Assembly (NCBI GenBank): GCA_025354645.1
Contig: JANXML010000331.1
Coordinates: 1 to 48,824, forward strand
DNA from: Arcicella sp.
Lineage (GTDB): Bacteria; Bacteroidota; Bacteroidia; Cytophagales; Spirosomataceae
Direction of reading: 5' to 3'
DNA length: 48,824 bases
A program made the translations under genes and the position numbers. Below, piece by piece: positions 10,858 through 47,618 of this stretch. Under the pieces are notes generated by a model. The model was not told the origin of the DNA. It saw only the letters and a list, made by a program, of their open reading frames with translations, and ran no database searches. How positions within the stretch are numbered: the stretch's first letter is position 1; each line of letters begins with the position of its first letter.

Positions 10858-10901
10858 ATGTGAATAATGTAATTTATTTGCAAAGTAATGTAATAGATTT
10901 A
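10858..10901 (+). promoter_or_regulatory. Upstream half of stress promoter K, severed by the IS
   Basis: ATGTGAATAATGTAAT (10858-10873) and the second half-site ATGTAAT (10888-10894) stand 21 bp apart, as in the eleven intact copies. The -7 box is missing here: the IS begins at 10902. If the IS and one TTA copy are removed, TTTG at 11796 falls exactly 32 bp after the start of the second half-site. Confidence 0.85.
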
Positions 10902-11774
10902 GAAGATGTTTAAAAATTAGTTTTTAATCAAAAAAGGGAATCGGTTTGTTATCTTTTAAACGACGAAATTTATCAGATATGCAAACTTGTTACGAAGTTT
11001 TAACCGATTCCCGCTGGGAAATTATCAAAGAAATTGTTTCCGACCAAAGAAAGCGAAAATATAATTTGCGGGACGTGTTAGATGCCCAATTTTATATCTT
11101 ACGAACAGGTACACAATGGCGAAATATTCCTGATACTTACCCGCCTTGGGAGACGGTTTATTACTATTTTCGGAAGTGGAAAAAAGACGGAACAATTGAA
11201 CGTCTTAATGCCACTTTGAATAAATTTGAACGTAAAAGACATGGCAAAAATGAAACGCCAAGTCTGTTATGTATTGACAGTCAATCAGTTAAAGTTGCTG
11301 CATTCATCAGTGAAGACAAAGGCATTGATGGTAACAAGCTCGTCAATGGTCGTAAAAGACACATAATTGTTGATACACTCGGACTGATTTGGGGTGTCGT
11401 TGTTCATGCTGCCGACATTCACGATGGAACGAAGGCTCATCTGTTAGTAGAACACTGTTTAGGTTACTTGGATAGAATGCAAAAAATACTCGTCGATGAT
11501 GCTTATAAAAAAGTATTTTACGATTGGGTCTATGATAATATTGTTGGATTAGAAGTTGAATTTGCATCAAGACCACCATCGGCAAAAGGCTTTGTTCCAG
11601 TCAAATGGAGATGGGTCAATGAAAGAACTTTTGGTTGGCTGAATTTCTTCCGAAGGCACGCAAAAGACTATGAAAAAACAACAAATTCTGCCGAAGCATG
11701 GATACTACTTACTAATTGCCAAATAATCTTAAATAGAAACTGAATTTTACCAAATATAATTTTTAAACATCTTC
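10902..11774 (+). mobile_element. IS5-family insertion sequence
   Basis: This complete 873-bp element has perfect 18-bp terminal inverted repeats (gaagatgtttaaaaatta at 10902-10919, complement at 11757-11774). It is flanked by TTA direct repeats (10899-10901, 11775-11777), the 3-bp TNA-type target duplication of several IS5 subgroups. One transposase gene fills it. The identical ends suggest recent insertion. Confidence 0.93.
10979..11743 (+). CDS. IS5-family DDE transposase
   Basis: The 254-residue transposase has an N-terminal DUF4096-like helical domain (LTDSRWEIIKEIV, then RTGTQWRNIPDTYPPWETVYYYFRKW) and a DDE catalytic core with D in LCIDSQSVK, D in LVDDAYKK and E in NERTFGWL, followed by the typical FFRRHAKDYEKT stretch. 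I place the start at the ATG 10979; a longer reading frame begins with TTG at 10946. No stop or frameshift is present, so the element looks active. Confidence 0.93.
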   Translation: MQTCYEVLTDSRWEIIKEIVSDQRKRKYNLRDVLDAQFYILRTGTQWRNIPDTYPPWETVYYYFRKWKKDGTIERLNATLNKFERKRHGKNETPSLLCIDSQSVKVAAFISEDKGIDGNKLVNGRKRHIIVDTLGLIWGVVVHAADIHDGTKAHLLVEHCLGYLDRMQKILVDDAYKKVFYDWVYDNIVGLEVEFASRPPSAKGFVPVKWRWVNERTFGWLNFFRRHAKDYEKTTNSAEAWILLTNCQIILNRN

Positions 11775-11777
11775 TTA

Positions 11778-11801
11778 GTTAGGTAATTACTGAATTTTGT
11801 A
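11778..11801 (+). promoter_or_regulatory. Downstream half (-7 box) of promoter K
   Basis: TTTTGTATTT at 11795-11804 supplies the TTTGTA -7 box (TTTG 11796-11799) 37 nt before the hydrolase ATG. Its upstream activator sites are now 873 bp plus one TSD away on the far side of the IS. Residual expression would depend on outward transcription from the IS. Confidence 0.8.
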
Positions 11802-11832
11802 TTTCAAATTTTAATCTAAATGTAGAGATATT

Positions 11833-12678
11833 ATGAAATTCATTGAAACAACCCCTGATGAGTTAGGCAATTCCGTAAACTTATTTTACACAGATTTAGG
11901 TCGTGGAAAACCCGTAGTTTTCATTCATGGCTGGCCCCTAAATCATGCTATGTGGGAGTACCAATTGGCTGAACTTCCAAAGCATAATCTTCGTTGCATC
12001 GCCTATGACCGTCGTGGCTTCGGGAAGTCTGATTATCCTTGGGAAAATTATGATTATGATACCTTTGCTGATGATTTGAAAGCACTGCTTGATCAGTTGC
12101 ATTTGACAGAAGTAACCTTAGTGGGATTTTCGATGGGTGGAGGAGAAATTGCTCGATATATTGGAAAATATGGAAATGATAAAATTAGTAAAGTTGTGCT
12201 GATTAGTGCTGTAACCCCTTTTATGTTAAAAACTGATGATAATGTAGAAGGCGTAGATAAGTCAGTTTTTGACGAAATGGTTGAAAATATCGATAAAGAT
12301 CGTCCAGCATTCTTAGCAGATTTTGGTAAACAGTTTTATGGCGTTAGTCTTTTCAACGATGCTGTTAGTGAACAAACGTTACAGTGGAATCAATCAGTTT
12401 GTTTGATGAGTTCGCACAAGGCAACGGTTGATTGTGTACTTGCATTTTCGCAAACAGATTTTAGAAGTGATTTGGCAAAAATTAATGTACCTACTTTGAT
12501 TATACACGGAGATTCGGACAAAACTGTGCCAATTGAAGCCTCTGGAAATCGGACTTCAATGATGTTGCCAAACGCAAAATATCTCATTTATGAAGATGCT
12601 CCTCATGGACTTTTTATTACTGAAAAAGATAAATTGAATGCGGACTTAATTGATTTTATTAAGGGAAGTACTATGTAA
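11833..12678 (+). CDS. Alpha/beta hydrolase (non-heme chloroperoxidase/esterase type)
   Basis: A 281-residue single-domain hydrolase with triad S100 (GFSMGG), D227 (HGDSDKTVP) and H258 (DAPHGL), and oxyanion-hole HGWPL (32-36). The YDRRGFGKSD stretch is typical of the cofactor-free perhydrolase/esterase group often annotated chloroperoxidase. It has no signal peptide. Its promoter once belonged to the shared stress-promoter set but is split by the IS directly upstream, so the gene may be poorly expressed in this strain although its frame is intact. Confidence 0.9.
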   Translation: MKFIETTPDELGNSVNLFYTDLGRGKPVVFIHGWPLNHAMWEYQLAELPKHNLRCIAYDRRGFGKSDYPWENYDYDTFADDLKALLDQLHLTEVTLVGFSMGGGEIARYIGKYGNDKISKVVLISAVTPFMLKTDDNVEGVDKSVFDEMVENIDKDRPAFLADFGKQFYGVSLFNDAVSEQTLQWNQSVCLMSSHKATVDCVLAFSQTDFRSDLAKINVPTLIIHGDSDKTVPIEASGNRTSMMLPNAKYLIYEDAPHGLFITEKDKLNADLIDFIKGSTM

Positions 12679-12712
12679 TTTATTGTTAAAATAGTTAAGT
12701 TTATAAAAAAAG

Positions 12713-12740
12713 AAGCCCTACAATTTGTGGGGCTTTTTTT
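12713..12740 (+). terminator. Terminator after the alpha/beta hydrolase
   Basis: A short aagccc/gggctt stem with an AT-rich loop is followed by seven T. Confidence 0.75.
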
Positions 12741-12832
12741 ACGAAATTATGAATAAAATAGTAGTAACTATTTAAAAATCAATTAGTTGATAAACTCATT
12801 TTATTGCCTAAATATGCTTTATTCTCCTGTAA

Positions 12833-12900
12833 GTGTGAATGATGTAATATATTCTAACAATTATATAACACATTAAAATGATGATTTTATGACCTTTGTA
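12833..12900 (+). promoter_or_regulatory. Shared stress promoter, copy A
   Basis: GTGTGAATGATGTAAT at 12833-12848, the second half-site ATATAAC at 12863-12869 (21-bp step) and CCTTTGTA with TTTG at 12895 (32-bp step). It precedes the Met-rich DUF6799 gene by 36 nt. Confidence 0.9.
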
Positions 12901-12935
12901 GCGTTATTATTTTACTAACAATAAACAACAAGAAA

Positions 12936-13385
12936 ATGAAAAAGTTAATTTTAATTTTATCAATTATTACCGTTTCTCTAAGTTCATTTGCCTACACTAA
13001 TTCTGATACGGAAATGCGTCAGGATACAATGAATACATCGAGAAAAAACAAAAAGATGGGAGCATCTGGAACTGGAAGCAATACTTCCAATATGAATCAA
13101 GATACCATGAACACGTCGAGAACTGGCGGAAAAATGGGTAAAATGGGTCATAACAAAATGGGTAAAATGGAAGATGGTGTGATGATGAAAGATGGCAAAA
13201 TGATGATGTCTAAAAGCGGACAAATGATGCCGATGGATAATGAAGTTACATTGGATAATGGAACAAAAATTATGACTGACGGAACATACATGGATAAGAA
13301 TGGTAATTCGATGAAAATGAAAAACGGGGATCATATGAGTATGTCAGGCAAAATGATGTCAATGAAAAAACATAAAATGAAATAG
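12936..13385 (+). CDS. Met/Lys-rich exported protein, DUF6799-like
   Basis: The 149-residue protein has a signal peptide (cleavage near SFA-YTN) and an extraordinary Met, Lys and Gly content. The octamer QDTMNTSR occurs twice (about residues 25-32 and 55-62), followed by MGKMG repeats. The C-terminal half alternates DG/NG turns with Met-rich strands (MMKDGKMMMSKSGQMMPMDN, then LDNGTKIMTDG), the DUF6799 pattern. Met clusters suggest soft-metal (Cu) binding or methionine as an oxidant sink, but that is inference. Promoter A lies directly upstream. Confidence 0.8.
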   Translation: MKKLILILSIITVSLSSFAYTNSDTEMRQDTMNTSRKNKKMGASGTGSNTSNMNQDTMNTSRTGGKMGKMGHNKMGKMEDGVMMKDGKMMMSKSGQMMPMDNEVTLDNGTKIMTDGTYMDKNGNSMKMKNGDHMSMSGKMMSMKKHKMK

Positions 13386-13393
13386 TTTTAATA

Positions 13394-13438
13394 AGGCAGT
13401 TTATAGAAACATAAAACTATGAACTGCCTTTTTTTCTC
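13394..13438 (+). terminator. Terminator between the Met-rich and PA2169 genes
   Basis: Arms aaggcagtt/aactgcctt are followed by seven T. The next gene starts 16 nt later without a visible promoter of its own, so it probably depends on read-through from promoter A. Confidence 0.85.
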
Positions 13439-13453
13439 TAAACAGGATGCTAT

Positions 13454-14568: not shown

Positions 14569-14574
14569 GAATCT

Positions 14575-16771: not shown

Positions 16772-16839
16772 GTGGGAATTATATAACATTTAGCAAAAAT
16801 TATGTAAGTATGTATTCAGTGTATCCCACCATCTTTGTA
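16772..16839 (+). promoter_or_regulatory. Shared stress promoter, copy E
   Basis: GTGGGAATTATATAAC at 16772-16787, second half-site ATGTAAG at 16802-16808 (21-bp step) and ATCTTTGTA with TTTG at 16834 (32-bp step). It is not followed by an ordinary gene: a terminator comes about 160 nt later. Confidence 0.88.
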
Positions 16840-16950
16840 TCGTAGTTATTGATACAGTTAATCAAAAAAAACTACAAAAAATATGGACGAATTTAGGTCA
16901 AAGCAGGGCTTATTTGTTTAATCCCTTCTTATTAAAACATAAAAAAATTA

Positions 16951-16967
16951 AATAGTGGTTAGGTGTT
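16951..16967 (+). repeat. 17-nt 3'-UTR element, copy 1
   Basis: AATAGTGGTTAGGTGTT is identical to 37316-37332, and each copy lies 3-4 nt upstream of a terminator whose stem is otherwise unrelated. A looser copy is at 35179-35195. Confidence 0.65.
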
Positions 16968-16970
16968 ATG

Positions 16971-17006
16971 AAAACGTTCTCTTGTTTAGAGAACGTTTTT
17001 TCTTTT
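16971..17006 (+). terminator. Terminator of the candidate small RNA
   Basis: A perfect 12-bp stem, aaaacgttctct/agagaacgtttt, with a five-base loop and T-rich tail. Confidence 0.92.
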
Positions 17007-17023: not shown

Positions 17024-17089
17024 GTGGAAATCATATAATTATTTAGTTTTATTGTGTAATTCTCATTTCTATTCAGTGAGTTATTTTTG
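17024..17089 (+). promoter_or_regulatory. Shared stress promoter, copy F
   Basis: GTGGAAATCATATAAT at 17024-17039, second half-site GTGTAAT at 17054-17060 (21-bp step), TTTG at 17086 (32-bp step). It begins 18 nt after the small-RNA terminator and leads into the 41-residue gene and the glycan operon. Confidence 0.88.
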
Positions 17090-17127: not shown

Positions 17128-17253
17128 ATGGCAACTACCACAAAAAGTGATAGAAAATCCATGATGGATATTAACTCTGAAACAACGAAAGGAACAACTT
17201 TTAAGTCCACTGGGTCCAATAAATCAGATAACGCAAAAGACTCAAAAAAATAG
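17128..17253 (+). CDS. Small hydrophilic protein of 41 residues
   Basis: The ATG at 17128 lies 42 nt after the TTTG of promoter F, the same distance as in other genes of the set, and the frame is open for 41 codons. The product is rich in Thr, Ser and Lys (KSDRKSMMDI at the start, NAKDSKK at the end), with no hydrophobic core, so it is probably disordered. It resembles in style the Lys/Ser-rich proteins at 32864 and 42201. No family recognised. Confidence 0.6.
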   Translation: MATTTKSDRKSMMDINSETTKGTTFKSTGSNKSDNAKDSKK

Positions 17254-17348: not shown

Positions 17349-18524
17349 ATGAATCTTATTTGCTTTTCGCATCTACGCTGGAATTTTGTTTATCAACGTC
17401 CACAACATATATTGAGTCACTTTGCAAGTCAATACGTAACGTATTACGTAGAAGAATTTATAATTAACGATCAGGAGGATGGCTATGAAATATACAAAAC
17501 CAAAGAGAATGTATTGGTCGTTACGCCTCATTTAAACAATGCTACATTCTCAGAAGATAGCAAAAATGCACGTATAACGAACATCTTGAAGGATTTTTTC
17601 AGTGAAGAAGGAATAAAAAATTATATATTTTGGTATTATACGCCAATGGCTTTGGCTTTCACGAAGAGCTTTAGACCAAAAGTTGTTGTGTATGATTGCA
17701 TGGATGAGTTGAGTGCTTTTAAATTTGCTCCGCAAGAATTAAAGAATCTTGAGCAAGAGCTATTGGATTCTGCTGATATTGTTTTCACGGGCGGTAATAG
17801 CTTGTATGAAGCCAAGAAGAATCAACATCATAATATCTTTTCATTCCCAAGCAGCATAGACAAAACGCACTTTTCAAAGGCTCGTCAAGTGCTTGACCAA
17901 CCCGAAGACCAGAAGCATATTCCTTATCCAAGACTTGGATTTTTTGGGGTTATTGATGAACGTTTTGATATTGAGCTTATTGAAAAAGCAGCAATCCTTA
18001 AACCAGATTGGCAATTCGTTTTGATTGGTCCAGTGGTGAAAATTGACCCCATGACTTTACCAAAGAATGATAATATTCATTATTTAGGAGGGAAATCTTA
18101 TCAAGAATTACCTACTTATTTAAGTGGTTGGGATATTTCATTGATTCCATTTGCCATTAATGAATCAACCAAATTTATTAGTCCCACAAAAACGCCTGAA
18201 TATTTAGCGGCTGGAAAACCAGTAGTTTCCTCGCCTATTCATGATGTTATATATCCCTACGGAGAAAACAATTTAGTACACATTGTGGATAATGCTTTTG
18301 ATTTAATTGAAAAGGCATCTCAAGAACTTGCCTTGAAAGATAAAAGTGAATGGCTGGAACGGGTGGATGATTACTTGAATGATATTTCATGGGATTTGAC
18401 GTGTTCAAAAATGCAAAAATTAGTTAAAATTGAGTTGGAAGACAAAGAAATTGCTAAAATTGTTAAACTTCCAAGAATGAATAATAATGATATTTTATCG
18501 AGAGTGGAAGTAGGGGTGAAATGA
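17349..18524 (+). CDS. Glycosyltransferase (GT-B, GT4-like)
   Basis: A 391-residue GT-B protein. The N-terminal FSHLRWNFVYQRPQHILSHFA is a hallmark of a GT4-like group found beside sugar mutases and clan-A glycosidases. The C-terminal half carries FFGVIDERFDIELIE, the donor-binding SLIPFAINESTKFISPTKTPEYLAAGKPVVSS (two acidic/EYLA motifs, about 265-300). It should transfer a sugar from an NDP-sugar at the cytosolic face. Its stop overlaps the start of the next gene (ATGA), so they are translationally coupled. Confidence 0.88.
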   Translation: MNLICFSHLRWNFVYQRPQHILSHFASQYVTYYVEEFIINDQEDGYEIYKTKENVLVVTPHLNNATFSEDSKNARITNILKDFFSEEGIKNYIFWYYTPMALAFTKSFRPKVVVYDCMDELSAFKFAPQELKNLEQELLDSADIVFTGGNSLYEAKKNQHHNIFSFPSSIDKTHFSKARQVLDQPEDQKHIPYPRLGFFGVIDERFDIELIEKAAILKPDWQFVLIGPVVKIDPMTLPKNDNIHYLGGKSYQELPTYLSGWDISLIPFAINESTKFISPTKTPEYLAAGKPVVSSPIHDVIYPYGENNLVHIVDNAFDLIEKASQELALKDKSEWLERVDDYLNDISWDLTCSKMQKLVKIELEDKEIAKIVKLPRMNNNDILSRVEVGVK

Positions 18525-19822: not shown

Positions 19823-19887
19823 GTGTGAAAGTTATAAGTCTTTATCATAATTATGTAATATTTTCGAGTTTTAATTTAATAATTTTG
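19823..19887 (+). promoter_or_regulatory. Shared stress promoter, copy L
   Basis: GTGTGAAAGTTATAAG at 19823-19838, second half-site ATGTAAT at 19853-19859 (21-bp step), TTTG at 19884 (31-bp step). This is the weakest copy of the first half-site. It precedes the lipoprotein hydrolase by 94 nt. Confidence 0.75.
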
Positions 19888-19977: not shown

Positions 19978-21120
19978 ATGAAATCAAAATCATTTTATGT
20001 CAAGTTGCTTATAGTAAGTGGCTTAATGACAACCATTATTTCTTGTAACAACAAGCCAAAATCTTCTGATACTGCCGAAGTAAATCAATATGCCAAAGAT
20101 AGTATTATTGATAAAAACGAAGGTGTAAAATTAAGCCCAAAGGGAGGAGTTCCAGGTTGGGGAACAACCATAAAACCTGAGATGCAAGTCGTTATCGACA
20201 AACTTATCAGCCTTGGTGGAAAGCCTATTGAAACGCTTAGTGCCAAAGAAGCACGTATGCAACCAACCCCAACGGATGCGGCAATGGCAGTTATGAAAGA
20301 AAATAATATGCCAATGCCCACTGCACTCTGCGACACGGTTGGTAAGGATATTCCCGTTACAGGTGGCAAAACGCACATAAGAATATATACACCACAAGCA
20401 GGCACAGCACCACATCCCGTTATTGTATATTATCATGGAGGTGGATATGTGATTGCTGATATTAATGTATATGGAGGCAGTACGCAAGGATTATGTGAAC
20501 AAACAGGTGCCATTGTTGTTTCGGTAGAATATCCAAAAGGACCAGAACATAAATTTCCAGCGGCACATAATGTTGCTTTTGATGCGTATAAATGGGTACT
20601 CAAAAATGCGGCTTCTTTCAAGGGAGATGCCTCAAAAATTGCTATAGTGGGCGAAAGTGCTGGGGGTAATCTTGCCGCTAACGTAAGTATCATGGCGAGG
20701 GATAAAAAACTGCAAATGCCATTGTATCAGGTGTTGGTATATCCCGTTGCAAGCAATGACATGACGAATGAAAGTTACACAAAATATGCTGCCGCAAAAC
20801 CTTTAAACAAGGCAATGATGGGCTGGTTTGTGAAAAACTATTTGGTAAGTACAGACCAATCCGCTGACCCTCGCATCAGTATAGTAAACGCCAATCTTGC
20901 AGGTTTGCCTAAAACACTAATCATTGGAGCGGAAATTGACCCTCTACAAACCGAAGGAAAATGGTTGAGTGATAAATTAAAAGCTGCCAATGTGGACACC
21001 GAATATAAACTATACGAAGGAGTCACCCACGAATTTTTTGGTATGGCAACCGTTGTTCCTCAAGCAAAAGATGCTCAAGCATTAGCTTCAAAAAACATCA
21101 AATCTGCTTTTGGAATGTAG
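19978..21120 (+). CDS. Alpha/beta hydrolase lipoprotein (HSL/esterase family)
   Basis: A 380-residue exported esterase. The lipobox IISC gives C23; the hormone-sensitive-lipase motif HGGG is at 153-156; the triad is S227 (GESAGG), D321 (GAEIDPL) and H351 (VTHEFFG). The family hydrolyses short acyl esters, here in the periplasm or at the outer membrane. It is transcribed alone from stress promoter L and ends at a good terminator. Residues 30-110 before the catalytic domain form a helical cap region. Confidence 0.9.
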   Translation: MKSKSFYVKLLIVSGLMTTIISCNNKPKSSDTAEVNQYAKDSIIDKNEGVKLSPKGGVPGWGTTIKPEMQVVIDKLISLGGKPIETLSAKEARMQPTPTDAAMAVMKENNMPMPTALCDTVGKDIPVTGGKTHIRIYTPQAGTAPHPVIVYYHGGGYVIADINVYGGSTQGLCEQTGAIVVSVEYPKGPEHKFPAAHNVAFDAYKWVLKNAASFKGDASKIAIVGESAGGNLAANVSIMARDKKLQMPLYQVLVYPVASNDMTNESYTKYAAAKPLNKAMMGWFVKNYLVSTDQSADPRISIVNANLAGLPKTLIIGAEIDPLQTEGKWLSDKLKAANVDTEYKLYEGVTHEFFGMATVVPQAKDAQALASKNIKSAFGM

Positions 21121-23370: not shown

Positions 23371-23438
23371 GTGTGAATAATATAACTAATTCATAAAGTT
23401 ATGTAATACTTATACCCTCATAAAATAGCACCTTTGTA
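23371..23438 (+). promoter_or_regulatory. Shared stress promoter, copy C
   Basis: GTGTGAATAATATAAC at 23371-23386, second half-site ATGTAAT at 23401-23407 (21-bp step), CACCTTTGTA with TTTG at 23433 (32-bp step). It precedes the GH130 gene. Confidence 0.9.
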
Positions 23439-27169: not shown

Positions 27170-27733
27170 ATGAAATTATACATCAAATATGACATTAATG
27201 AAATTTGTAAAAAAATTCTTCAAGAACAATTAGATAGATTATCATTATCGTATGTTTTACTTGGATATAGCGAGGTGGAAATAAAAGAAGATATTTCAAA
27301 TGATAAATTAAAGGAACTTCATGCAGGATTAAATAGTTACGGAATTGAAGTGGTAGAAAGTAGTAAAAACATCTTAGTTCAGAAAATTAAAGATGTAATT
27401 ATTGAGATGATTTATGAGAACGATAAACTGCCATCTTCAAAGATTTCCGCTTATTTAGCCGATAAAATTTCTCATAGTTATGGATACATTGCCAACGTAT
27501 TTGCAGAGGTTACTTATACATCGGTTGAAAATTTTATTATCTTACACAGAATTGAATTTGCAAAAAAACTGATAACAATAGATGAATTATCTTTTACAGA
27601 AATTTCTCATAAATTGAATTATAGTAGCCTTGCCCATTTTTGTACACAGTTTAAAAATACGACTGGATTAACGCCTTCTGCCTTTAAAAGAATTATTCTT
27701 AAAAGACGTGAAGCCGCTTTGAACAATACATAA
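27170..27733 (+). CDS. AraC-family transcriptional regulator
   Basis: The 187-residue protein has a small N-terminal alpha/beta domain (1-70) resembling those of short Bacteroidota AraC proteins, then two helix-turn-helix units: KISAYLADKISHSYGYIANVF (about 91-111) and FTEISHKLNYSSLAHFCTQF (about 142-161), ending in the AraC hallmark KNTTGLTPSAFKRI. No ligand-binding cupin is present. It sits between the glycan operon and a response regulator/kinase pair, inside the cluster of shared stress promoters. It is my first candidate for the activator that binds them (inference). Confidence 0.9.
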   Translation: MKLYIKYDINEICKKILQEQLDRLSLSYVLLGYSEVEIKEDISNDKLKELHAGLNSYGIEVVESSKNILVQKIKDVIIEMIYENDKLPSSKISAYLADKISHSYGYIANVFAEVTYTSVENFIILHRIEFAKKLITIDELSFTEISHKLNYSSLAHFCTQFKNTTGLTPSAFKRIILKRREAALNNT

Positions 27734-27837: not shown

Positions 27838-28284
27838 ATGCAGAACGAACCAATACATGTATTACTTGCCGATGATGATGAAGATGACCGCCTTTTTTTT
27901 AGCGACGCCATCAAAGAATTGAAAATGAATACTGTGGTGAATGTAGTAAAAGACGGGCAAGACTTAATCGACTATCTTTTGCAAACTGATGTGACACTCC
28001 CTCACGTACTATTTTTGGATTTGAATATGCCCATCAAAACAGGATTAGAATGCTTGAAAGAAATAAAAAATATTGACCGACTTAAAAATATTGCCATTGC
28101 CATTTACTCAACTTCTGCCTCAGAGAAAGATATTGAGGAAACATTTATTAGAGGAGCAAACGTTTATATCAAAAAACCGAGCAGTTTTACTTCGCTTAAA
28201 AAAGTTTTATCGGAAGTCATTACCCTTAATTGGCAATACCACACATCGGGACTGGACAGAAACAATTTTCTTTTGAGTCTTTAA
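27838..28284 (+). CDS. Stand-alone response regulator (CheY-like receiver)
   Basis: The 148-residue receiver domain has the acidic pair D12/D13 (LLADDDEDD), phosphoacceptor D61 (LFLDLNMP), S91/T92 and K112/K113 (YIKKPSS). There is no output domain, so it acts by protein contact, as in phosphorelays or Rcp1-type regulators paired with CHASE/PAS kinases. It lies 14 nt before the histidine kinase gene, and both are surely one operon. Confidence 0.92.
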   Translation: MQNEPIHVLLADDDEDDRLFFSDAIKELKMNTVVNVVKDGQDLIDYLLQTDVTLPHVLFLDLNMPIKTGLECLKEIKNIDRLKNIAIAIYSTSASEKDIEETFIRGANVYIKKPSSFTSLKKVLSEVITLNWQYHTSGLDRNNFLLSL

Positions 28285-28298: not shown

Positions 28299-30089
28299 AT
28301 GAATTTACAAAGTATTTATCTTTTCACTTCTTCATCTTTTCTTAGGAAGATTTTTTTAGGTGCTTTGTTTATTTTAATCTGCATTTCGGCATTCACGTAC
28401 CGCCATACGTTTGCTCTCTCTGATTCAACCGCATCAGTGATACATTCACAGCAAGTTCATCTTGAATTGGAACAAATGATGTCCTATCTAAAAGATGCTG
28501 AAACAGGTCAGAGAGGATATATTCTTACCCAAAATCCCGTATATCTTCAGCCTTATAATGGGTCAAGAGAAAAAGTGGAGGTTTCTTTTAAATTATTGAA
28601 GTCTTTAACTCTCGATAATTCCAAACAGCAAATCAATTTAGATTCGCTTCATAAAATCATTGATTTAAGGTATTCTCTTTTTAGAAAATCCTTAGCATTA
28701 AGTGTCGAAAAGCCCGTAAATAAGGTCGAATTTGATAATGTTTTAATGAATGGGAAGAATGCAATGGACGATATCCGTTATAGAGTCAATCAAATGATTG
28801 AATTTGAGTTGGTATATCTGAAAGAAAAAAAGGCTAAATATGAAAGTGAGATTTCATTTACGCCCGTTTTCACGATAGTACTTTTTCTTTTTACGGTTCT
28901 GATTTTTGCGATTGCCTACATGATGATTAATCGTGATTTAAAGAACGTACATAAAGCCAACAAAGAATTAACAATCATTAATGAATCAATTGACCACGCT
29001 GAAATTATTGGAAATTTTTGCCTCACTCAATGGGATTTATATAACAATAAATTAATCTATTCCGATAATTTGTATCGAATGTTAGGTTGCGAGCCACAGT
29101 CGTTTGAACCAACCGTTGAAAATTATGTAGCCTTCGTTCATCCAGAAGATAAACATATTGTTGAAAGAGGTGCCAATGATGCTCTGAATAAAAATGAAAC
29201 GTACATTCGTACTTACAGAATCATTAGAAAAGATGGTGAAATAAGGTATTTTAGGTCGGTAGGTAAATTGATTGAAGATGCAAAAAATCATAAAACTCAC
29301 ATTGGTATTATTAATGATGTGACTGAACAACATTTAAGTAATTTATCATTGGAGGAACAAAATCTTGAATTGGAACAAACTGTTAAAGAATTAGCTTCTT
29401 TCAACTACGTGGCAAGTCACGATTTGCAGGAACCGCTCCGAAAAATTCAGTTATTTATTTCTCGAATTGATGAAAATGAAAAACACTCATTGTCGGAGAC
29501 TGGCAAAGAGTATTTTGCCAGAATCAATGTTTCAGCACTCAGAATGCGAGTTTTGATTGATGATTTGTTGCAATTTTCCAGAACAAACAAGGCGGAAAAG
29601 AATTTAGAAAGGACGGATTTGAACAAGATATTTCATAAGGCAAAAAATGAATTAGCGGAAGCGATTCGTGACAAAAAGGGCATTATTCAAACCAATAGAT
29701 TGCCGATTTTAAACGTAATTCCCTACCAAATTGAACAACTTTTCATTAACCTTATCAGTAATTCCTTGAAATATAGTAGGGTAGGAGTTGAGCCTTTTAT
29801 AAAAATTGAATGTGAAAAAGTGAGAGGTAAAGATTATTCTCCTTTTAAAGTAAACGGAGAAAAAAAATATTTTAAGTTCACTTTCACAGATAATGGTTTG
29901 GGATTTGAACAAAAAAATGCAGAAAGTATTTTCATACTTTTTCATCGTCTTCATCATAAGTCCGAATATAATGGTACGGGTATTGGATTATCAATCTGTA
30001 AAAAAATTGTTGAAAATCATGGAGGTTTCATCACTGCAAAAGGCGTACCTAATGAGGGTTCGGCATTTACTTTTTTTCTTCCCGCATAA
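28299..30089 (+). CDS. CHASE3-PAS sensor histidine kinase
   Basis: A 596-residue membrane kinase. TM1 is at about 15-33; the CHASE3 periplasmic sensor (about 42-185) has KDAETGQRGYILT; TM2 is at about 190-210. A PAS_3 domain (about 235-345) ends in GIINDVTEQ. The HisKA domain has H374 in NYVASHDLQEPLRKIQ. The ATPase domain shows NLISNSLKYS, DNGLGF and GTGIGLSICKKIVENHGG. This phytochrome-like HisKA type usually signals to a Rcp1-like receiver, which is the gene just upstream. Confidence 0.94.
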   Translation: MNLQSIYLFTSSSFLRKIFLGALFILICISAFTYRHTFALSDSTASVIHSQQVHLELEQMMSYLKDAETGQRGYILTQNPVYLQPYNGSREKVEVSFKLLKSLTLDNSKQQINLDSLHKIIDLRYSLFRKSLALSVEKPVNKVEFDNVLMNGKNAMDDIRYRVNQMIEFELVYLKEKKAKYESEISFTPVFTIVLFLFTVLIFAIAYMMINRDLKNVHKANKELTIINESIDHAEIIGNFCLTQWDLYNNKLIYSDNLYRMLGCEPQSFEPTVENYVAFVHPEDKHIVERGANDALNKNETYIRTYRIIRKDGEIRYFRSVGKLIEDAKNHKTHIGIINDVTEQHLSNLSLEEQNLELEQTVKELASFNYVASHDLQEPLRKIQLFISRIDENEKHSLSETGKEYFARINVSALRMRVLIDDLLQFSRTNKAEKNLERTDLNKIFHKAKNELAEAIRDKKGIIQTNRLPILNVIPYQIEQLFINLISNSLKYSRVGVEPFIKIECEKVRGKDYSPFKVNGEKKYFKFTFTDNGLGFEQKNAESIFILFHRLHHKSEYNGTGIGLSICKKIVENHGGFITAKGVPNEGSAFTFFLPA

Positions 30090-30228: not shown

Positions 30229-30294
30229 GTGTGAATGATGTAAGTTATAATTAAAGTTGTGTAATACTTATTTTTATGAAGATTCTCAACTTTG
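30229..30294 (+). promoter_or_regulatory. Shared stress promoter, copy B
   Basis: GTGTGAATGATGTAAG at 30229-30244, second half-site GTGTAAT at 30259-30265 (21-bp step), TTTG at 30291 (32-bp step), 40 nt before the DUF4142 gene. Confidence 0.9.
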
Positions 30295-30330: not shown

Positions 30331-30927
30331 ATGAACAATTGTAGAAAGTTAAAATCAGCATTATTTATTATTGCTTTAATTTCTATTACATTTTTTAGCA
30401 TGACTTCGTGCGACAACAAAGCGAAAACGGAGGACACAAAAGAAGTTGCAGAAGACAAAAACGAGGCAAAAATGGAAGGAACGAACAATGAAGCGGATGC
30501 TCAATTTTTAGTAAATGTAGCAGAAATCAATCAAGAAGAAATCAGTTTAGGAAAATTGGCACAACAAAAAGGCTCAATGGCTGATGTGAAAGACTTAGGA
30601 AAAATGATGGTTGAGGCTCACACGAAAGGAATGAAAGATTTATCAGAACTTGCTATGAAAAAATCAATCAGTCTTCCAGAAGCAAAAACGGATGATGTGA
30701 ATGAAGCATACAAAGAAATGAATGAGAAATCGGGTAAAAAATTCGATGAAAAATATTGTGAAAAAATGGTTGATGGTCATAAAGATGCCATCAGTAAGTT
30801 TGAAAAAGCCTCAACCGATGCAGTGGACCCAGATATTAAAATGATGGCAACAAATATGCTCCCAGATTTGCGTAAACACTTAGAAATGGCAGAAATGTGC
30901 AAGAAAAAATGTGAAGCAATGAATTAA
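30331..30927 (+). CDS. DUF4142 lipoprotein
   Basis: A 198-residue lipoprotein (lipobox SMTSC, C27) with an acidic Lys/Glu linker, then a DUF4142 ferritin-like four-helix bundle (about 50-190). ADAQFLVNVAEINQEEISLGKLAQQKGSMADVKDLGKMMVEAHTK-type helix 1-2 is diagnostic. The C-terminus has clustered Cys/His/Met (MAEMCKKKCEAMN). DUF4142 proteins are widespread in stress and envelope gene sets, with no known reaction. Stress promoter B lies directly upstream. Confidence 0.9.
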   Translation: MNNCRKLKSALFIIALISITFFSMTSCDNKAKTEDTKEVAEDKNEAKMEGTNNEADAQFLVNVAEINQEEISLGKLAQQKGSMADVKDLGKMMVEAHTKGMKDLSELAMKKSISLPEAKTDDVNEAYKEMNEKSGKKFDEKYCEKMVDGHKDAISKFEKASTDAVDPDIKMMATNMLPDLRKHLEMAEMCKKKCEAMN

Positions 30928-36267: not shown

Positions 36268-36335
36268 GTGGAAATAATGTAATATATTTTCAATATTGTG
36301 TAATAAATACTATCTCCATTTTGAAGACCTTTGTA
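36268..36335 (+). promoter_or_regulatory. Shared stress promoter, copy D
   Basis: GTGGAAATAATGTAAT at 36268-36283, second half-site GTGTAAT at 36298-36304 (21-bp step), GACCTTTGTA with TTTG at 36330 (32-bp step), 26 nt before the CsbD-like ATG. Confidence 0.9.
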
Positions 36336-36359: not shown

Positions 36360-36554
36360 ATGAAAAATTCAACGGTAACAACCTTAGATTGGGAAGTAGT
36401 TAAAGAAAAATTACTGCAACAATTCAGTACTTTAACCGAAGAGGATTTAATGACAGAAAGCGGAAAGGAAGATGAGGTATTTGACAAACTCGAAGCAAAA
36501 TTAGGAATGCCAAAAGAGGAAATCTATGATATGGTTGGTAAATTTGAAAAATAA
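36360..36554 (+). CDS. CsbD-like general stress protein
   Basis: A 64-residue hydrophilic helical protein. DWEVVKEKLLQQFSTLTEEDLM, then GKEDEVFDKLEAKLGMPKEEI and a final F follow the CsbD pattern (WxxxKGKxKxKWGxLTDDDL...GKxDxLxGKLQxxYGxxKEEA). CsbD is a sigma-B-controlled protein in Bacillus with no known reaction. The strongest type of shared stress promoter lies directly upstream, in accord with that role. Confidence 0.85.
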   Translation: MKNSTVTTLDWEVVKEKLLQQFSTLTEEDLMTESGKEDEVFDKLEAKLGMPKEEIYDMVGKFEK

Positions 36555-37315: not shown

Positions 37316-37332
37316 AATAGTGGTTAGGTGTT
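37316..37332 (+). repeat. 17-nt 3'-UTR element, copy 2
   Basis: AATAGTGGTTAGGTGTT is identical to 16951-16967 and lies 4 nt upstream of the terminator stem. Confidence 0.65.
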
Positions 37333-37702: not shown

Positions 37703-37767
37703 CTTTCAAACCTATTAAATCGTTAAATTTACCAATCTCATAAATTAATAATAAATTGGTTACTAAA

Positions 37768-39774: not shown

Positions 39775-40455
39775 TTAGTGTTTCAAAAGTTTAATTAATT
39801 CTTGTGCAACCTCCTCTGACGAAGCAGGATTTTGACCCGTTATCAACAGCCCGTCTTTCACAACGTATGAAACAAAATCATCACTTTTTGAATATAAACT
39901 CCCTTTATTTTTTAATTCATCTTCCAATAAAAAAGGAACGACATCAGTCAATTTAACGCCTTCTTCCTCCGTATTGGTAAAGCCTGTAACTTTCTTTCCT
40001 TTCACCAAAGGTTCTCCGTTTTCATCCATCACGTTCAATAATGCTGAGGGTGCATGGCAAACAGCGGCAACTGGTTTTTTACTTTTCCAGAAGTCTTCAA
40101 TTAATTTTATTGAATCTTTATCGGTCGTTAAATCCCAAAGTGGTCCGTGTCCGCCTGGGTAGAAAATAGCATCAAAATTATCGGCTGAAACTTCAGTTAT
40201 TTTTTTAGTATGAGCCAACAAAGTTTGCAAATCACCATCTGCTTTGAAACGTATGGTGGCAGGAGTTTGGCTTGAAGGCTCGTCACTTTTAGGGTCAATT
40301 GGAGGTTGTCCACCCTTGGGGGATGCCAATACAATTGATGCACCTGCTTCTCGAAAAACATAATACGGAGCGGCAAATTCTTCTATCCAGAAGCCAGTTT
40401 TTTTGCCAGTGTTTCCGAGTTCACTGTGTGAAGTGAGAACAATTAATATCTTCAT
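39775..40455 (-). CDS. DJ-1/PfpI family protein (type 1 glutamine amidotransferase-like)
   Basis: A 226-residue Hsp31/DJ-1 superfamily protein. The nucleophile elbow AAVCHAPSALL gives C133 and H134, and E25/E26 in FWIEEFAAPY fits the conserved Glu; YPGGHGPLWDL and ITGQNPASS are typical of the YhbO/Hsp31-like glyoxalase group. Such proteins repair or detoxify glyoxal damage or act as chaperones. The start is the ATG at 40455; the TTG at 40467 is unlikely. Stress promoter H is 36 nt upstream. Confidence 0.92.
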   Translation of the reverse strand: MKILIVLTSHSELGNTGKKTGFWIEEFAAPYYVFREAGASIVLASPKGGQPPIDPKSDEPSSQTPATIRFKADGDLQTLLAHTKKITEVSADNFDAIFYPGGHGPLWDLTTDKDSIKLIEDFWKSKKPVAAVCHAPSALLNVMDENGEPLVKGKKVTGFTNTEEEGVKLTDVVPFLLEDELKNKGSLYSKSDDFVSYVVKDGLLITGQNPASSEEVAQELIKLLKH

Positions 40456-40490: not shown

Positions 40491-40555
40491 CAAATTTCTG
40501 ATTTATATAAAAAATACCATTACATAATTTTGCAAAAGAATTACATGATTCACAC
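40491..40555 (-). promoter_or_regulatory. Shared stress promoter, copy H
   Basis: On the minus strand: GTGTGAATCATGTAAT (40555-40540), second half-site ATGTAAT (40525-40519, 21-bp step), TTTG at 40494 (31-bp step). It drives the DJ-1/sugar dehydrogenase operon. Confidence 0.88.
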
Positions 40556-40994: not shown

Positions 40995-41891
40995 TTACTT
41001 TTTATCAGGGTTTAATAAATCATAAAACTGATCAAGTTTTGGCATTAAAATAATCCGAGTACGACGATTGGTTGTGCGTCCTTCTGCAGTGCTGTTGCTG
41101 GTCAAAGCATTAAATTCACCTCGACCCGCCGCAATCAATTTATTGGGGTCGATATTGAAAGTTTGTTGCATCACTCTCACAACCGATGTGGCACGTTTTA
41201 CGCTTAAATCCCAATTGTCCGTAATACATTCAGTATTGATTGCTACGTTGTCTGTGTATCCTTCCACCATTACTTCCAACTCAGGTCTTGATTTTACAAT
41301 TTGTGCAATTTTCTCTAAAATAGTATTTGCCTTAGATGATATTTTTGCACTTCCAGTAGTGAAAAGCATTTTGTCTGAAAGGTTCACCATCACCACTGTT
41401 TTATCAACCTTCACTTCTATATCTTGGTCTTCAATTCCGTTCGCTAAAACCTTAGTAAGATTCAAGGCTAAGGCTAAATTTAAAGAATCAGTTTTTGTTC
41501 GTGCGGCTCTCAAGAGGTTTATATATTTATCTTTTTGCTCTAATTGCGATAACGTTTTGTTAATATTTTCATTGGCTTCTTTTGATAAAACCGTTAAATT
41601 ACCAACTGCATCTAATTGTTTGTCACGGTTTTTTCTTAAATCGACAATTTGGTCATTTAGATTGGTAATTTGTGCATCACGTTGCGTTTTCAAACTTTCA
41701 TTCTCTTGGTTTGTTCTTGCCATAGCCGCCAAACGGTCTTTATAGTCTTGAACACTATCTCCACATTTCACTAAATCGGTTTGAGCTTTGTCGTATCTTG
41801 ATTGTAAATCAATAAATTTCTTTTTGGCTACGCACGAGGAAAGCAAAACCGCTACCATAAAAAAGAATAAAATTTTAAAAGGATTTGTCAT
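40995..41891 (-). CDS. OmpA-family peptidoglycan-binding lipoprotein
   Basis: A 298-residue lipoprotein (lipobox LLSSC, C20). A long coiled coil (about 22-150) is followed by an OmpA C-terminal domain (about 165-285) with MLFTTGSAKISSKANTILEKIA, VMVEGYTDNVAIN, DNWDLSVKRATSVVRVMQ and AAGRGEFNAL. It ties the outer membrane to peptidoglycan. The start must be the ATG at 41891: an in-frame ATG at 41924 lies upstream of the likely transcript start set by promoter I (TTTG at 41925). Confidence 0.93.
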   Translation of the reverse strand: MTNPFKILFFFMVAVLLSSCVAKKKFIDLQSRYDKAQTDLVKCGDSVQDYKDRLAAMARTNQENESLKTQRDAQITNLNDQIVDLRKNRDKQLDAVGNLTVLSKEANENINKTLSQLEQKDKYINLLRAARTKTDSLNLALALNLTKVLANGIEDQDIEVKVDKTVVMVNLSDKMLFTTGSAKISSKANTILEKIAQIVKSRPELEVMVEGYTDNVAINTECITDNWDLSVKRATSVVRVMQQTFNIDPNKLIAAGRGEFNALTSNSTAEGRTTNRRTRIILMPKLDQFYDLLNPDKK

Positions 41892-41921: not shown

Positions 41922-41987
41922 CAAATATCAGAACGATAAAATCGTGAAGTGTTATATAATTTTAAAAAGGAATTACATCTTTCACAC
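41922..41987 (-). promoter_or_regulatory. Shared stress promoter, copy I
   Basis: On the minus strand: GTGTGAAAGATGTAAT (41987-41972), second half-site ATATAAC (41957-41951, 21-bp step), TTTG at 41925 (32-bp step). It drives the OmpA lipoprotein and fixes its start codon. Confidence 0.9.
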
Positions 41988-43640: not shown

Positions 43641-43651
43641 AGTTTGTTTTG

Positions 43652-44785: not shown

Positions 44786-44823
44786 TGAATTTAGAGGTTG
44801 TTTTTTAGGGTTTATATTGTATC

Positions 44824-44943: not shown

Positions 44944-44993
44944 TGTTTTTGTTGGTTTTAAAATGTTATAAAAAGGTTTAAAATTAATAATAT

Positions 44994-45866
44994 TTAATGT
45001 TGCAGAGGGCGTTTTTTCACCATGCCTCCTTTGATATTTCTGACGCTACTGATAACTATAAATGCGTTTGAATCAATTTTTTCAATTTCAGAATTGAGCC
45101 GATTTATTTCTAACCGTGTGAGGACGGTATAGACAATGTCAATATTTTTCAACTCACCATTCTTGCCAAATCCGTTTTTGCCTACGTAAACGGTTACGCC
45201 CCAATCAATGTCGTCTCTAATCATATCGGCAATTTGCTTACTCTTTACTGATACTATCGTTACGCCCATGTATTCCTCGATGCCATCCACAATAAAATCA
45301 AGCGTTTTTGAGGCTGATAAGTAAGTAATCATTGAATACAAGGCAGTTTCAACGGACAGAAAGTAAGCGGCAACTGAAAAAATAATGACGTTTATTACGA
45401 TGATAATATCCCCAATACTTGTTCCAAATCTTCTACTTAAAAATATTGCTAAAACTTCCGTGCCATCAATTACTGCCCCACCTCTCACGGCAAGACCAAT
45501 GCCCGAACCCAAGAAAAATCCTCCGAAAATGGCAACTAATAAATTATCTTTTGTCACGTCTGGAAAAGATACAGTTCCAACCACTAAAGCAAGACCTGCG
45601 ATGGCAAAAGAAGTTTTCAGAGCGAAAACTTTACCCATTATTTTATAGCCAAGAAAAACAAAGGGGATGTTCACTAATATTAAGAGAATGTAGAGTGGAA
45701 TGTGTGTTATGGCAGAAATCAGTAAAGAAATTCCAGTGGCTCCTCCATCAATAAAATGGTTTGTCAATAAAAAGCCTTTGAAACCAAATGCAGCAGAAAA
45801 AACGCCAAGCGTTATGAAAACAAAATCTTTGATATATTTTAATATGGTTAATTTTGGTTCCTGCAT
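44994..45866 (-). CDS. YitT family membrane protein (DUF161-DUF2179)
   Basis: A 290-residue protein with five or six membrane helices (about 12-195) of the YitT/DUF161 type (FGFKGFLLTNHFIDGGATGISLL and RGGAVIDGTEVLAIFLSRRFG) and a cytosolic C-terminal DUF2179 domain (about 215-285). YitT proteins are widespread; the transported molecule is unknown. It heads a minus-strand run with the 39-residue protein, AI-2E transporter and Dps. The ORF begins at MQEPKLTILKY, with a normal A-rich leader. Confidence 0.9.
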   Translation of the reverse strand: MQEPKLTILKYIKDFVFITLGVFSAAFGFKGFLLTNHFIDGGATGISLLISAITHIPLYILLILVNIPFVFLGYKIMGKVFALKTSFAIAGLALVVGTVSFPDVTKDNLLVAIFGGFFLGSGIGLAVRGGAVIDGTEVLAIFLSRRFGTSIGDIIIVINVIIFSVAAYFLSVETALYSMITYLSASKTLDFIVDGIEEYMGVTIVSVKSKQIADMIRDDIDWGVTVYVGKNGFGKNGELKNIDIVYTVLTRLEINRLNSEIEKIDSNAFIVISSVRNIKGGMVKKRPLQH

Positions 45867-46038
45867 AATATTGAGCTTCGGGTTTGTTCATTCTAACTTT
45901 TAATAAGAATACATGAATAAAATTTGTTTATTTCTTATAAATTGACGGAACAATATGCACTTACCGCAATAGTTCGAACAAAAACCTATCAGGCGTTTGA
46001 AACACTATTAACATCAAATCTTAAACTCATGGTAAAAA

Positions 46039-46423
46039 CTATTTAATCTCCTTTTCCATCAGTTCGATTTGAGTTTTCTCCTTCTTCACATCTTGACGAA
46101 TCAGAGCGAATAGACTCATATATACGTTGGCAATCCATACCAATGAAAAAAGAGCAATCACGTAGCCTCTCCAATCATTCATAATGAATTTATAGTCCGT
46201 AAAAAAAAATAAAAAAGGCTGAAACGTAATGACTAAAACAATATTCACACGTGAAAAGATAGAAAATTTTTCGTTCTAAAATAGTCTTTCCAGTCTTACT
46301 GTGTTCAACGCAATACTCACGAGGTTCTTTAAAAATTTCTTCGTGAGTAACCGTCCAAGCCACACAAGCAATTGGAATCGCTAATAAAAAAAGGATAAAA
46401 ACTTGATTTTCAGATAATTCCAT
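46039..46423 (-). pseudogene. Frameshifted membrane protein gene (T9 tract)
   Basis: Two overlapping frames on the minus strand, 46423-46190 (77 codons) and 46248-46039 (69 codons), together read as one protein of about 127 residues. Frame 1 gives three-helix-like MELSENQVFILFLLAIPIACVAWTVTHEEI through FTCEYCFSHYVSAFFIFF; frame 2 continues TDYKFIMNDWRGYVIALFSLVWIANVYMSL. The join falls in nine consecutive T (46201-46209); eight would restore the frame. This may be a true mutation, a phase-variable tract, slippage or a sequencing error. The function is unknown. Confidence 0.75.
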
Positions 46424-46498
46424 TATGATTCATTACTATTATAATTATTATATTTTCAATTATTTTCATAAATTTGAGATAAATAGAATTTATAATAA

Positions 46499-46855
46499 TC
46501 AGTCTAACCCACGATTCTCTTCTAAATCATCGTGATTATCGCCACCTAAACTGTAGTAATTATTCTCTTCATCTTCCATGCCGTTGTTTTCTTGTTCGTC
46601 ATCCATTTCTGAACCTGGCACGTCCAAATCATCGCCCACTAAATCTTCATTAAAAGATTTCTCGTTCCATTCTCCCAAATCATCGTTTGAGTTTTTCATT
46701 TTTGAAGGGTTTTCAGGGTCAATGTCCTGTTCTTCTTTAAGTCGAGCGTAAACATCTTCACTGGCTGGATATTTTGGATAGCCAGGAAAATTTTCTTTCG
46801 TTTCGATATCCGCCTCGGGGATAGGGCGTTTGGTATTTTTATATTCTTGTTTCAT
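46499..46855 (-). CDS. Acidic hydrophilic protein of 118 residues
   Basis: A 118-residue, strongly acidic protein (Asp/Glu/Asn-rich C-terminal half, LVGDDLDVPGSEMDDEQENN) with a short conserved-looking start, KRPIPEADIETKENFPGYPKYPASEDVYARLKEE. That N-terminal block resembles a family of small stress-cluster proteins in Bacteroidota, but I cannot name it. It is probably disordered. It is transcribed alone; no shared promoter copy is visible upstream. Confidence 0.7.
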   Translation of the reverse strand: MKQEYKNTKRPIPEADIETKENFPGYPKYPASEDVYARLKEEQDIDPENPSKMKNSNDDLGEWNEKSFNEDLVGDDLDVPGSEMDDEQENNGMEDEENNYYSLGGDNHDDLEENRGLD

Positions 46856-46987
46856 GTTAAATTTTAGGATTGAGTTAAAAATATCAGTTTTTCTAAATTA
46901 TACAATAATTAAGGTTAAGAAAGGTCAATATCTCCACACTGTCAATAATCGAATCAGTCTTCCGTACAAATAAGTAAACTACAATTT

Positions 46988-47296
46988 TCATTTATAAACC
47001 TCTTTTTGCTTTTGAAAACTATTAGCTTTTGTTTCAGAATAATGGTCTGGACTTGCCATCACGGCAACGATACAATATAAAATGATGTTCATAATCACCA
47101 AAATGTAAGGAGGAAATTGTTGGTATTCAATGACAACTATATTGAAAGTTACCCAAAGAATTATTCCAGTTATCAATAGAAAATAAGATACCCACTTAGA
47201 TGATTCAAAAGTGAGTTTATTTTCAAGTGAATTTGAAACATCAAACTGCTTTATAAAAAGAGGTAATTGCAAATATTTAGTGTATTTATTTTCCAT
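46988..47296 (-). CDS. Short DUF1003-like membrane protein
   Basis: The 102-residue protein aligns by eye with the membrane core of the DUF1003 gene at 37768: KWVSYFLLITGIILWVTFN matches its first helix, and FPPYILVIMNIILYCIVAVMASPDHYSETK matches FDPYPFILMNLILSC...MMSQNRQEEK. The N- and C-terminal coiled coils are missing. It is thus a truncated or minimal paralogue. Stress promoter G is 25 nt upstream of the ATG, so it is under the shared control. Confidence 0.75.
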   Translation of the reverse strand: MENKYTKYLQLPLFIKQFDVSNSLENKLTFESSKWVSYFLLITGIILWVTFNIVVIEYQQFPPYILVIMNIILYCIVAVMASPDHYSETKANSFQKQKEVYK

Positions 47297-47320
47297 AACT
47301 TCACGATTTTTTAGTTATTA

Positions 47321-47386
47321 CAAAGGTGAGTTTATTTAATAAAAAAAGTATTACACAATTCACGGAAATAATTACAACATTCACAC
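47321..47386 (-). promoter_or_regulatory. Shared stress promoter, copy G
   Basis: On the minus strand: GTGTGAATGTTGTAAT (47386-47371), second half-site GTGTAAT (47356-47350, 21-bp step), CACCTTTGTA with TTTG at 47324 (32-bp step), 28 nt before the ATG counted from TTTG. Confidence 0.9.
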
Positions 47387-47392
47387 CTTAAT

Positions 47393-47547
47393 AAAATCAA
47401 AAAGCACCGTCATGTTTAAATGAAAGTGCTTTTTAATCTCGAATTGTTAAACTAAGCCGTCATTAGATTTGAATTAATAACGCTGTTTGTGTGTGTTAGT
47501 CTTTTTTTTATTCATACTTATTAAGGTTTATTTGTTACTAACTTAAT
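47393..47547 (-). ncRNA. Candidate small RNA (or micro-protein) driven by promoter J
   Basis: The transcript predicted from promoter J runs about 155 nt to a terminator. Its only reading frame at the usual distance (42 nt after TTTG) has 13 codons, 47515-47474, peptide MNKKKTNTHKQRY. Size and layout mirror the promoter E transcript, though the sequences are not alike. Confidence 0.55.
47399..47434 (-). terminator. Terminator of the promoter J transcript
   Basis: Perfect arms aaaaagcac/gtgcttttt (9 bp) are followed on the minus strand by gatttt. Confidence 0.8.
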
Positions 47548-47553
47548 GAAGTA

Positions 47554-47618
47554 CAAATTTTGAAATTTTACCGTAAATTTTGTTACATTACTTAATAAAA
47601 ATGTTACATAATTCACAC
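47554..47618 (-). promoter_or_regulatory. Shared stress promoter, copy J
   Basis: On the minus strand: GTGTGAATTATGTAAC (47618-47603), second half-site ATGTAAC (47588-47582, 21-bp step), TTTGTA with TTTG at 47557 (31-bp step). It has no ordinary gene downstream before a terminator. Confidence 0.87.

Follow-up and report, generated by a model that had tools for sequence, protein, structure and literature searches.

A tandem promoter element of Bacteroidota, probably read by an AraC/XylS-type activator, in a cluster of stress-like genes of Arcicella

The sites of the activator XylS read TGCA-N6-GGNTA-N6-TGCA-N6-GGNTA, with two boxes per half-site and a 21-bp step from one half-site to the next (PMC4514859, PMC5481539). 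The sites of LytTR regulators consist of 9-bp repeats with a 12-bp spacer, which again makes a 21-bp step, and lie just upstream of the promoter (PMC6193735). An element of comparable build is present in a stretch of 48,824 nucleotides from Arcicella sp., positions 1 to 48,824 of contig JANXML010000331.1 (assembly GCA_025354645.1). This whole stretch is referred to here as the window; it is contig C371 of a genome of 5.36 Mb in 392 contigs. Sites of fixed spacing lie before genes in the window, and across relatives they are associated with the gene of one regulator. Judging from sequence comparison, it is likely that they are tandem AraC/XylS-type activator sites of Bacteroidota, read by the AraC-type protein encoded at 27170-27733.

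At the promoters activated by XylS (Pm), MtlR and MekR, as in the present case, a pair of half-sites is arranged in direct orientation, each with two boxes (of which one is clear in the downstream half-site here); they lie just upstream of the promoter, a position that is predicted for the sites described here. XylS shares the 21-bp step as well. LytTR systems (PMC6193735) have in common with the present element a direct repeat with a 21-bp step and a location close upstream of the promoter, and positive autoregulation would be a further shared trait; they differ in the sequence of the repeat, in the lack of a LytTR gene at the window cluster and in the extra upstream box found here. Like the AraC/XylS activators, the candidate reader has an AraC-type DNA-binding domain. 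Unlike XylS/Pm, the promoter is of the Bacteroidota TAnnTTTG type, some 20 sites with stress-like targets take the place of one catabolic operon, and the putative reader has an N-terminal part of about 90 amino acids without a Pfam match and is encoded beside a receiver-only response regulator and a kinase.

The general stress regulons of the SigB/RpoS type comprise overlapping kinds of gene: as in those, genes for a Dps-type ferritin, YtxH and Usp stand in or near the cluster, and CsbD genes are found behind sites elsewhere. No sigma factor family scored above its cut-off among the 50 window open reading frames (ORFs) scanned, the rest of the genome not having been searched for one. Unlike in SigB/RpoS regulons, the -7 box resembles the housekeeping box reported for Flavobacterium (PMC9723704).

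Twelve sites of fixed spacing

A sequence-only reading of the window had listed twelve heptamer pairs, and 12/12 were recovered with their positions and strands. The step from heptamer 1 to heptamer 2 is 21 bp in every one of the twelve, as that reading held. From heptamer 2 to TTTG the distance is 32 nt in sites A, E, F, C, B, D, I and G and 31 nt in L, H and J; the ninth 32-nt copy that it had counted, K, has this spacing by arithmetic only, once an insertion sequence (IS) element and its TTA duplication, with bounds read by eye, are taken out. The first 10 kb are free of copies, as had also been said, at a threshold of at least 9 bits by a 41-bp matrix built from the twelve. With this matrix (total information 35.4 bits) the sites score 35.8-47.9 bits; the next best window position reaches 9.6 bits, the top score in 50 first-order Markov sequences was 13.2 bits, and every copy left out in turn still ranked within the top twelve. 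Chance or simple A+T richness is ruled out by the Markov sequences together with the reversed-sequence control given below. A mobile or MITE-like repeat (miniature inverted-repeat transposable element) was rejected because the flanks are not common to the copies, mean information being 0.86 bits per position in the core, 0.63 in the -7 region and 0.17-0.22 in the flanks.

The core runs from GTGTGAATNATGTAAT through a T-rich and then an A-rich stretch to TTATGTAATA; one way to read it is as a pair of half-sites in direct orientation, 21 bp from one to the next, with TATGTAAT-like repeats. Both boxes, TGTGAA and ATGTAA, are conserved in the upstream half-site at a distance of about 9-10 bp, and in the downstream half-site ATGTAA alone is well conserved. 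The Flavobacterium -7 box is reported to be TAnnTTTG at -12 to -5 (PMC9723704). Its A, the third base before TTTG, is A in 11/11 uninterrupted window copies, and its T is mostly replaced in these eleven. On the scale of this box heptamer 2 falls at about -40 to -34, a position extrapolated from the box and not from a mapped start. The sites and the genes considered below are as follows.

10858..10894, + strand: site K, both heptamers; the -7 box is cut off by the IS element; would serve the alpha/beta hydrolase gene 11833-12678
10902..11774, + strand: IS5-like insertion within promoter K, with DDE transposase 10946-11743; bounds read by eye
12833..12898, + strand: site A through TTTG, before the DUF6799 protein 12936-13385
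16772..16837, + strand: site E through TTTG, then a short stretch closed by a terminator-like hairpin; no ATG-started ORF of at least 30 amino acids before site F
17024..17089, + strand: site F through TTTG, before a 41-amino-acid ORF 17128-17253 and the glycosyltransferase 17349-18524
19823..19887, + strand: site L through TTTG, before the Abhydrolase_3 protein 19978-21120
23371..23436, + strand: site C through TTTG, at the head of the run GH130, GT4, AraC-type regulator, response regulator, histidine kinase
27170..27733, + strand: AraC-type regulator of 187 amino acids, HTH_18 at residues 96-174; candidate reader of the sites
27838..28284, + strand: receiver-only response regulator that may act together with the AraC-type protein
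28299..30089, + strand: CHASE3-PAS sensor histidine kinase, proposed signal input
30229..30294, + strand: site B through TTTG, before the DUF4142 protein 30331-30927
36268..36333, + strand: site D through TTTG, before a 64-amino-acid ORF 36360-36554 without Pfam match
40491..40555, - strand: site H through TTTG, before the DJ-1/PfpI protein 39775-40455
41922..41987, - strand: site I through TTTG, before the OmpA-family protein 40995-41891
47321..47386, - strand: site G through TTTG, before a 102-amino-acid protein 46988-47296
47554..47618, - strand: site J through TTTG; no ATG-started ORF of at least 30 amino acids before site G

In the genome, a model from eleven window copies that uses sequence alone (R1) finds 20 places at E<=4.1e-5, namely eleven in the window and nine outside it (contigs C146, C88, C144 twice, C340, C25, C44, C90 and C177); site K is given E 0.0017. 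The genes after the outside sites include those for a 222-amino-acid reductase-like protein (a label read from its sequence), a 127-amino-acid protein without Pfam match and a DUF4142 protein; for the sites on C90, C177 and C25 the gene listing has no clear target nearby. Contig C44 carries weaker site matches at genes that look metal-related from their sequence, one for a small protein rich in cysteine and one resembling P-type ATPases. A multicopper-oxidase-like gene on the same contig (L039, L040), as read from its sequence, is seemingly interrupted by a transposase gene.

The candidate reader and its two-component neighbours

The 187-amino-acid protein matches the Pfam families HTH_18 (51.4 bits, cut-off 33.6) and HTH_AraC (35.1 bits, cut-off 26.6). 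Among solved relatives the best is a YesN-type domain at E 1.4e-6, with GadX, SoxS and AraC at just E 0.04-0.06. The closest among the named matches listed come from two Arcicella assemblies, with 83-84% identity. A plasmid-borne origin was not favoured, relatives occurring on 29 of 72,556 plasmid records, all below 60% identity. The genome has one other full-length relative, on contig C44, whose N-terminus carries a CxxC motif that the window protein lacks; it stands among the metal-related-looking genes of that contig, where the weaker tandem sites are found too. The N-terminal part may be a metal-binding-type fold, an idea suggested by the CxxC motif that Pfam does not show.

For a wider view, loci were taken from named genomes carrying the best 80 of 577 confirmed relatives, mostly Flavobacterium and Chryseobacterium, the others being Cytophagales, Saprospiraceae and Bacteroidales-type records. 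A relative of the response regulator (tblastn E<=1e-10) lies at most 1.5 kb after the regulator gene in 66/80 loci, and response regulator and kinase both follow it in 52/80. The N-terminal letters of 54 aligned proteins fall into an S type (KYMVSxRC or KYMISxRC; 13 proteins) and a D type (41, including that of the window). None of the 13 S-type loci has a response-regulator relative, compared with 40 of the 41 D-type rows, window included (the exception is L208). This presence beside the D type and not the S type suggests that D-type proteins are wired to two-component input, and we infer that the receiver acts on the AraC-type protein by direct contact.

We hold the following scheme to be the most likely. 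Each site would hold two copies of a small AraC/XylS-type activator on direct half-sites 21 bp, or two helical turns, apart, the second of which would abut the -33 region of a TAnnTTTG-type Bacteroidota promoter. If TTTG is taken as the -7 box, the contact in the downstream half-site would come to lie near -40 to -34, where a bound protein could reach RNA polymerase and so boost a weak promoter. The predicted targets are envelope, ferritin-like and other protection genes, and the activator's own kind of gene may be the target in a fifth of the relatives' sites. In the window it is probably the receiver-only response regulator and the sensor kinase encoded alongside that control how active the protein is. 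That the protein binds and activates at the sites, that response regulator and kinase take part and that the signal is stress, we infer.

Sites and regulator genes across the phylum

In the 80 named loci R1 gives 109 matches at E<=0.01. By the 41-bp matrix the 78 loci from outside Arcicella (1,359,309 bases) hold 106 sites of at least 14 bits, compared with 0 in the reversed sequence, and 161 versus 12 at 10 bits; a site of at least 14 bits is present in 60/78. TTTG starts at +32 in 70 of these 106 sites and at +31 in 13. Random placement with respect to gene starts, the outcome that would have spoken against a promoter element, is not what was seen in the 80 loci: in 72/112 sites a gene called on the same strand starts 30-130 nt downstream of heptamer 2 (mean 5.6 and largest value 12 in 200 random placements), and 9/112 sites fall inside a called ORF, where the random mean is 92.

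An ATG-started ORF begins within 500 bp behind 103/112 sites. The commonest gene there is that of the regulator itself (21/103, in 21 loci), a share inflated by design since the loci were chosen for carrying it; the site is within 130 nt of the regulator start in just 6/21, and in most of the Flavobacterium cases the distance is about 400 nt. A comparison with mean site density allows in part for this selection: 21 sites stand 30-600 bp before the anchor regulator gene in the 78 loci, where 1.8 would be expected. Other groups behind sites are Dps-type proteins (13), DUF4142-like lipoproteins (8), Ig-like lipoproteins (8), beta-barrel proteins (4), and OmpA-like, CsbD and DUF5670 proteins (3 each), with pairs and singles that include YtxH, BON and YceI-like proteins. 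The labels beta-barrel, OmpA-like and YceI-like come from reading the sequences; Pfam, run on one representative per kind, matched ferritin, Big_5, CsbD, YtxH, BON and DUF5670 and gave no match for the DUF4142-like representative. In seven Chryseobacterium loci (L170, L171, L175, L177, L178, L179 and L182 near 11102) a site has no ATG-started ORF of at least 40 amino acids within 500 bp, and the sequence downstream of it looks well conserved among them.

Within the family, 107/121 genomes have a regulator relative at E<=1e-15 and 40/121 an R1 site at E<=1e-3. Site counts per genome by R1 are lower bounds (40 candidates were scored per genome in the family, 16 in the class and 136 in the second genus), and searches of more than 40 genomes used stricter filters. 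All 19 family genomes with at least three sites have a relative of at least 143 bits, as against 37/121 overall (Fisher p 2.6e-12); the Fisher tests here count related genomes as independent, and this cut, like that of 260 bits in the class, was chosen after looking. One or two sites are present in 21 genomes; the loci of 11 of them were examined, and 9/11 have a relative no more than 1.5 kb from the site, two of the nine relatives being of the CxxC type. In 12 loci, those nine and three from site-rich genomes, the order is regulator gene, site, next gene on the same strand. In six loci of large family genomes (L121, L124, L125, L127, L128 and L129) the regulator-adjacent site precedes a gene for a protein of about 410 amino acids that looks like one of the DUF3494 ice-binding type.

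In the class, 64/295 genomes have a site at E<=1e-5 and 133/295 a match at E<=1e-48 to a regulator profile whose rows are three Arcicella and 22 S-type proteins. At 260 bits or more the profile finds 17/29 genomes with at least three sites versus 35/266 others (p 1.4e-7); at E<=1e-48 the figures are 21/29, own genome included, versus 112/266 (p 0.0017), and at E<=1.2e-37 it reaches 23/29 site-rich genomes, the matches in G165 and G303 covering part of the protein only. In the second genus, that of G340, a score of at least 200 bits is found in 13/18 genomes with at least three sites versus 3/18 others (Fisher p 0.001), a count that includes one gene matched in two frames.

Several observations weigh against the AraC-type protein as general reader of the sites. 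Its own N-terminal part of about 90 residues has no Pfam match, the receiver-only response regulator showed no DNA-binding domain in the window Pfam scan, and in the window no site stands directly before the regulator gene, the nearest upstream being C, at a distance of two genes. Of the 37 family genomes with a relative of at least 143 bits, 18 have fewer than three sites. In the class, 6/29 site-rich genomes are without a full-length relative (G246, G253, G288, G326 and G340 have none at E<=1e-8, G392 a 73-residue HTH match only), and just 5/29 fetched best-site loci have a regulator gene within 1.5 kb. Three genomes of the second genus, G340 with 21 sites, G253 with 7 and G432 with 4, have no relative at E<=1e-15, and G429 (7 sites, 168 bits) and G437 (6 sites, 98 bits) have weaker relatives. 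The island of G340 has many genes in common with that of G220, which does carry the regulator gene; it is split over contigs, so that a contig may be missing and the regulator gene was possibly lost by an assembly gap. To the same side belong a LytTR domain near one genomic site and a protein of about 340 amino acids, both taken up next.

That the sites are read by a different activator of direct repeats, for instance a LytTR response regulator, is unlikely. Such a protein would account for the step and the promoter-proximal position, which match those in PMC6193735, and would sit well with the six site-rich genomes that have no AraC-type gene; moreover, one of the 34 LytTR domains of the genome (C88:24013-24282) lies about 114 bp from the site C88:23831-23899. 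No other of the 34 domains comes within 1 kb of any site at E<=4.1e-5, none is in the window, the repeats are unlike the ACCnCTTA-like 9-bp repeats described in PMC6193735, and the additional TGTGAA box in the upstream half-site is not expected of a LytTR repeat. The AraC-type family gene beside the site in 9/11 of the examined family genomes with one or two sites also speaks against a LytTR reader. We rate no higher the idea that the AraC-type protein governs its own neighbourhood only and that other, possibly several, proteins read the sites elsewhere, the promoters being convergent and not one regulon. Sites at CxxC relatives and metal-type genes do resemble the stress-type sites, genomes rich in sites and without the AraC-type gene exist, and the protein of about 340 amino acids, perhaps a second regulator, stands behind a site in four loci (L144, L148, L151 and L152); it shares a stretch with the regulator group and has no BLAST match to the window regulator at E<=1e-5. 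Against several readers, the twelve window sites have about 35 bits of sequence and the -7 spacing in common, which makes one reader simpler.

A Crp/Fnr-type protein reading the TGTGA part is highly improbable. One candidate is encoded at 2634-3227, a cNMP-binding-type protein at 26.3 bits, below the cut-off of 27.5, and GTGTGAA resembles a CRP half-site. No inverted TGTGA/TCACA partner half-site is present in the aligned copies, which hold direct repeats only, TGTGA is weak in D-type loci, and a relative of the 2634-3227 protein at E<=1e-5 occurs in 0/98 loci searched, by which this protein was ruled out. Taking both sides together, the AraC-type protein encoded at 27170-27733 is the most likely reader.

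Genes of the cluster and a possible control of stress in Bacteroidota

The gene list given by the sequence-only reading stands for DUF4142 (B), DJ-1 (H), OmpA (I), GH130/GT4 (C) and the hydrolases (K, L), and fails in two places: the supposed CsbD-like gene behind D, the ORF 36360-36554, has no Pfam match at E<=1e-3, although a CsbD protein does stand behind such sites in other genomes, and the DUF1003 gene at 37756 is not immediately preceded by a site. DUF1003 shares this lack with other genes of the cluster, those for DUF892, YtxH, two Ferritin_2 proteins, Usp and a Dps-like ferritin. Its view of the set as a stress regulon gains support from other genera, where the genes behind sites resemble those of the window; the word 'stress' is suggested by the gene families.

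The IS5-like element, with 24-bp inverted ends and a TTA duplication as judged by eye, displaces the -7 box of K; since it splits the promoter, the hydrolase gene should be uncoupled from the regulon. The stretch 16838-17000 (+) behind site E ends in a terminator-like hairpin (16970-17000; the scan found 1 where 0.1 was expected), and 97 nt of it are 89% identical in Arcicella locus L131, there too between two sites. This stretch may encode a small RNA that belongs to the regulon. No terminator came up behind J in that scan.

The motif TAGTGGTTAGGTG occurs at 16953-16967 and 37318-37332 (+) of the window and in five exact copies in the genome, and its variant TAGTGGTTAGGTA in three. In all eight, judged by eye, a terminator-like hairpin follows at a distance of a few bases, and the same holds for four more copies in L107 (two), L112 and L131; the motif is possibly a 3'-end RNA element. 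Only these two forms stand out, because with one mismatch allowed the total of 28 equals that of the read-backwards control (28). Elsewhere in the window a YoeB-type toxin (1504-1978, - strand, 106.9 bits) and an 81-amino-acid upstream ORF without Pfam match are probably an ordinary toxin-antitoxin pair.

In the literature searched, which comprised titles and the beginnings of abstracts of the papers listed first, with subscription papers and preprints outside its scope, no description of this element or regulator was found. Tandem sites are a known architecture among AraC/XylS proteins; the literature searched showed neither this group of regulators with its partner kinase nor its stress-like targets across several orders. 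To our knowledge, the control of a broad stress response in Bacteroidota is poorly described. As far as gene content can tell, the switch is probably the mark of a circuit that controls a stress response. A wider proposal, which we put forward tentatively and hold for less probable than its opposite, is that this is a core general stress response of Bacteroidota: a small AraC-type activator would do the work without a sigma factor, switched by a receiver-only response regulator through protein contact; the regulon would include short regulated transcripts (E, J); and the system would have arisen beside or from the CxxC metal-sensing sister branch with the same kind of site. A motif that can be found in genomes, together with one candidate regulator and a kinase, makes this a directly testable question in Flavobacterium. 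The motif offers a genome-wide means of predicting targets, and the stress-type and metal-type branches form a natural family in which to study how the specificity of AraC-type proteins changes.

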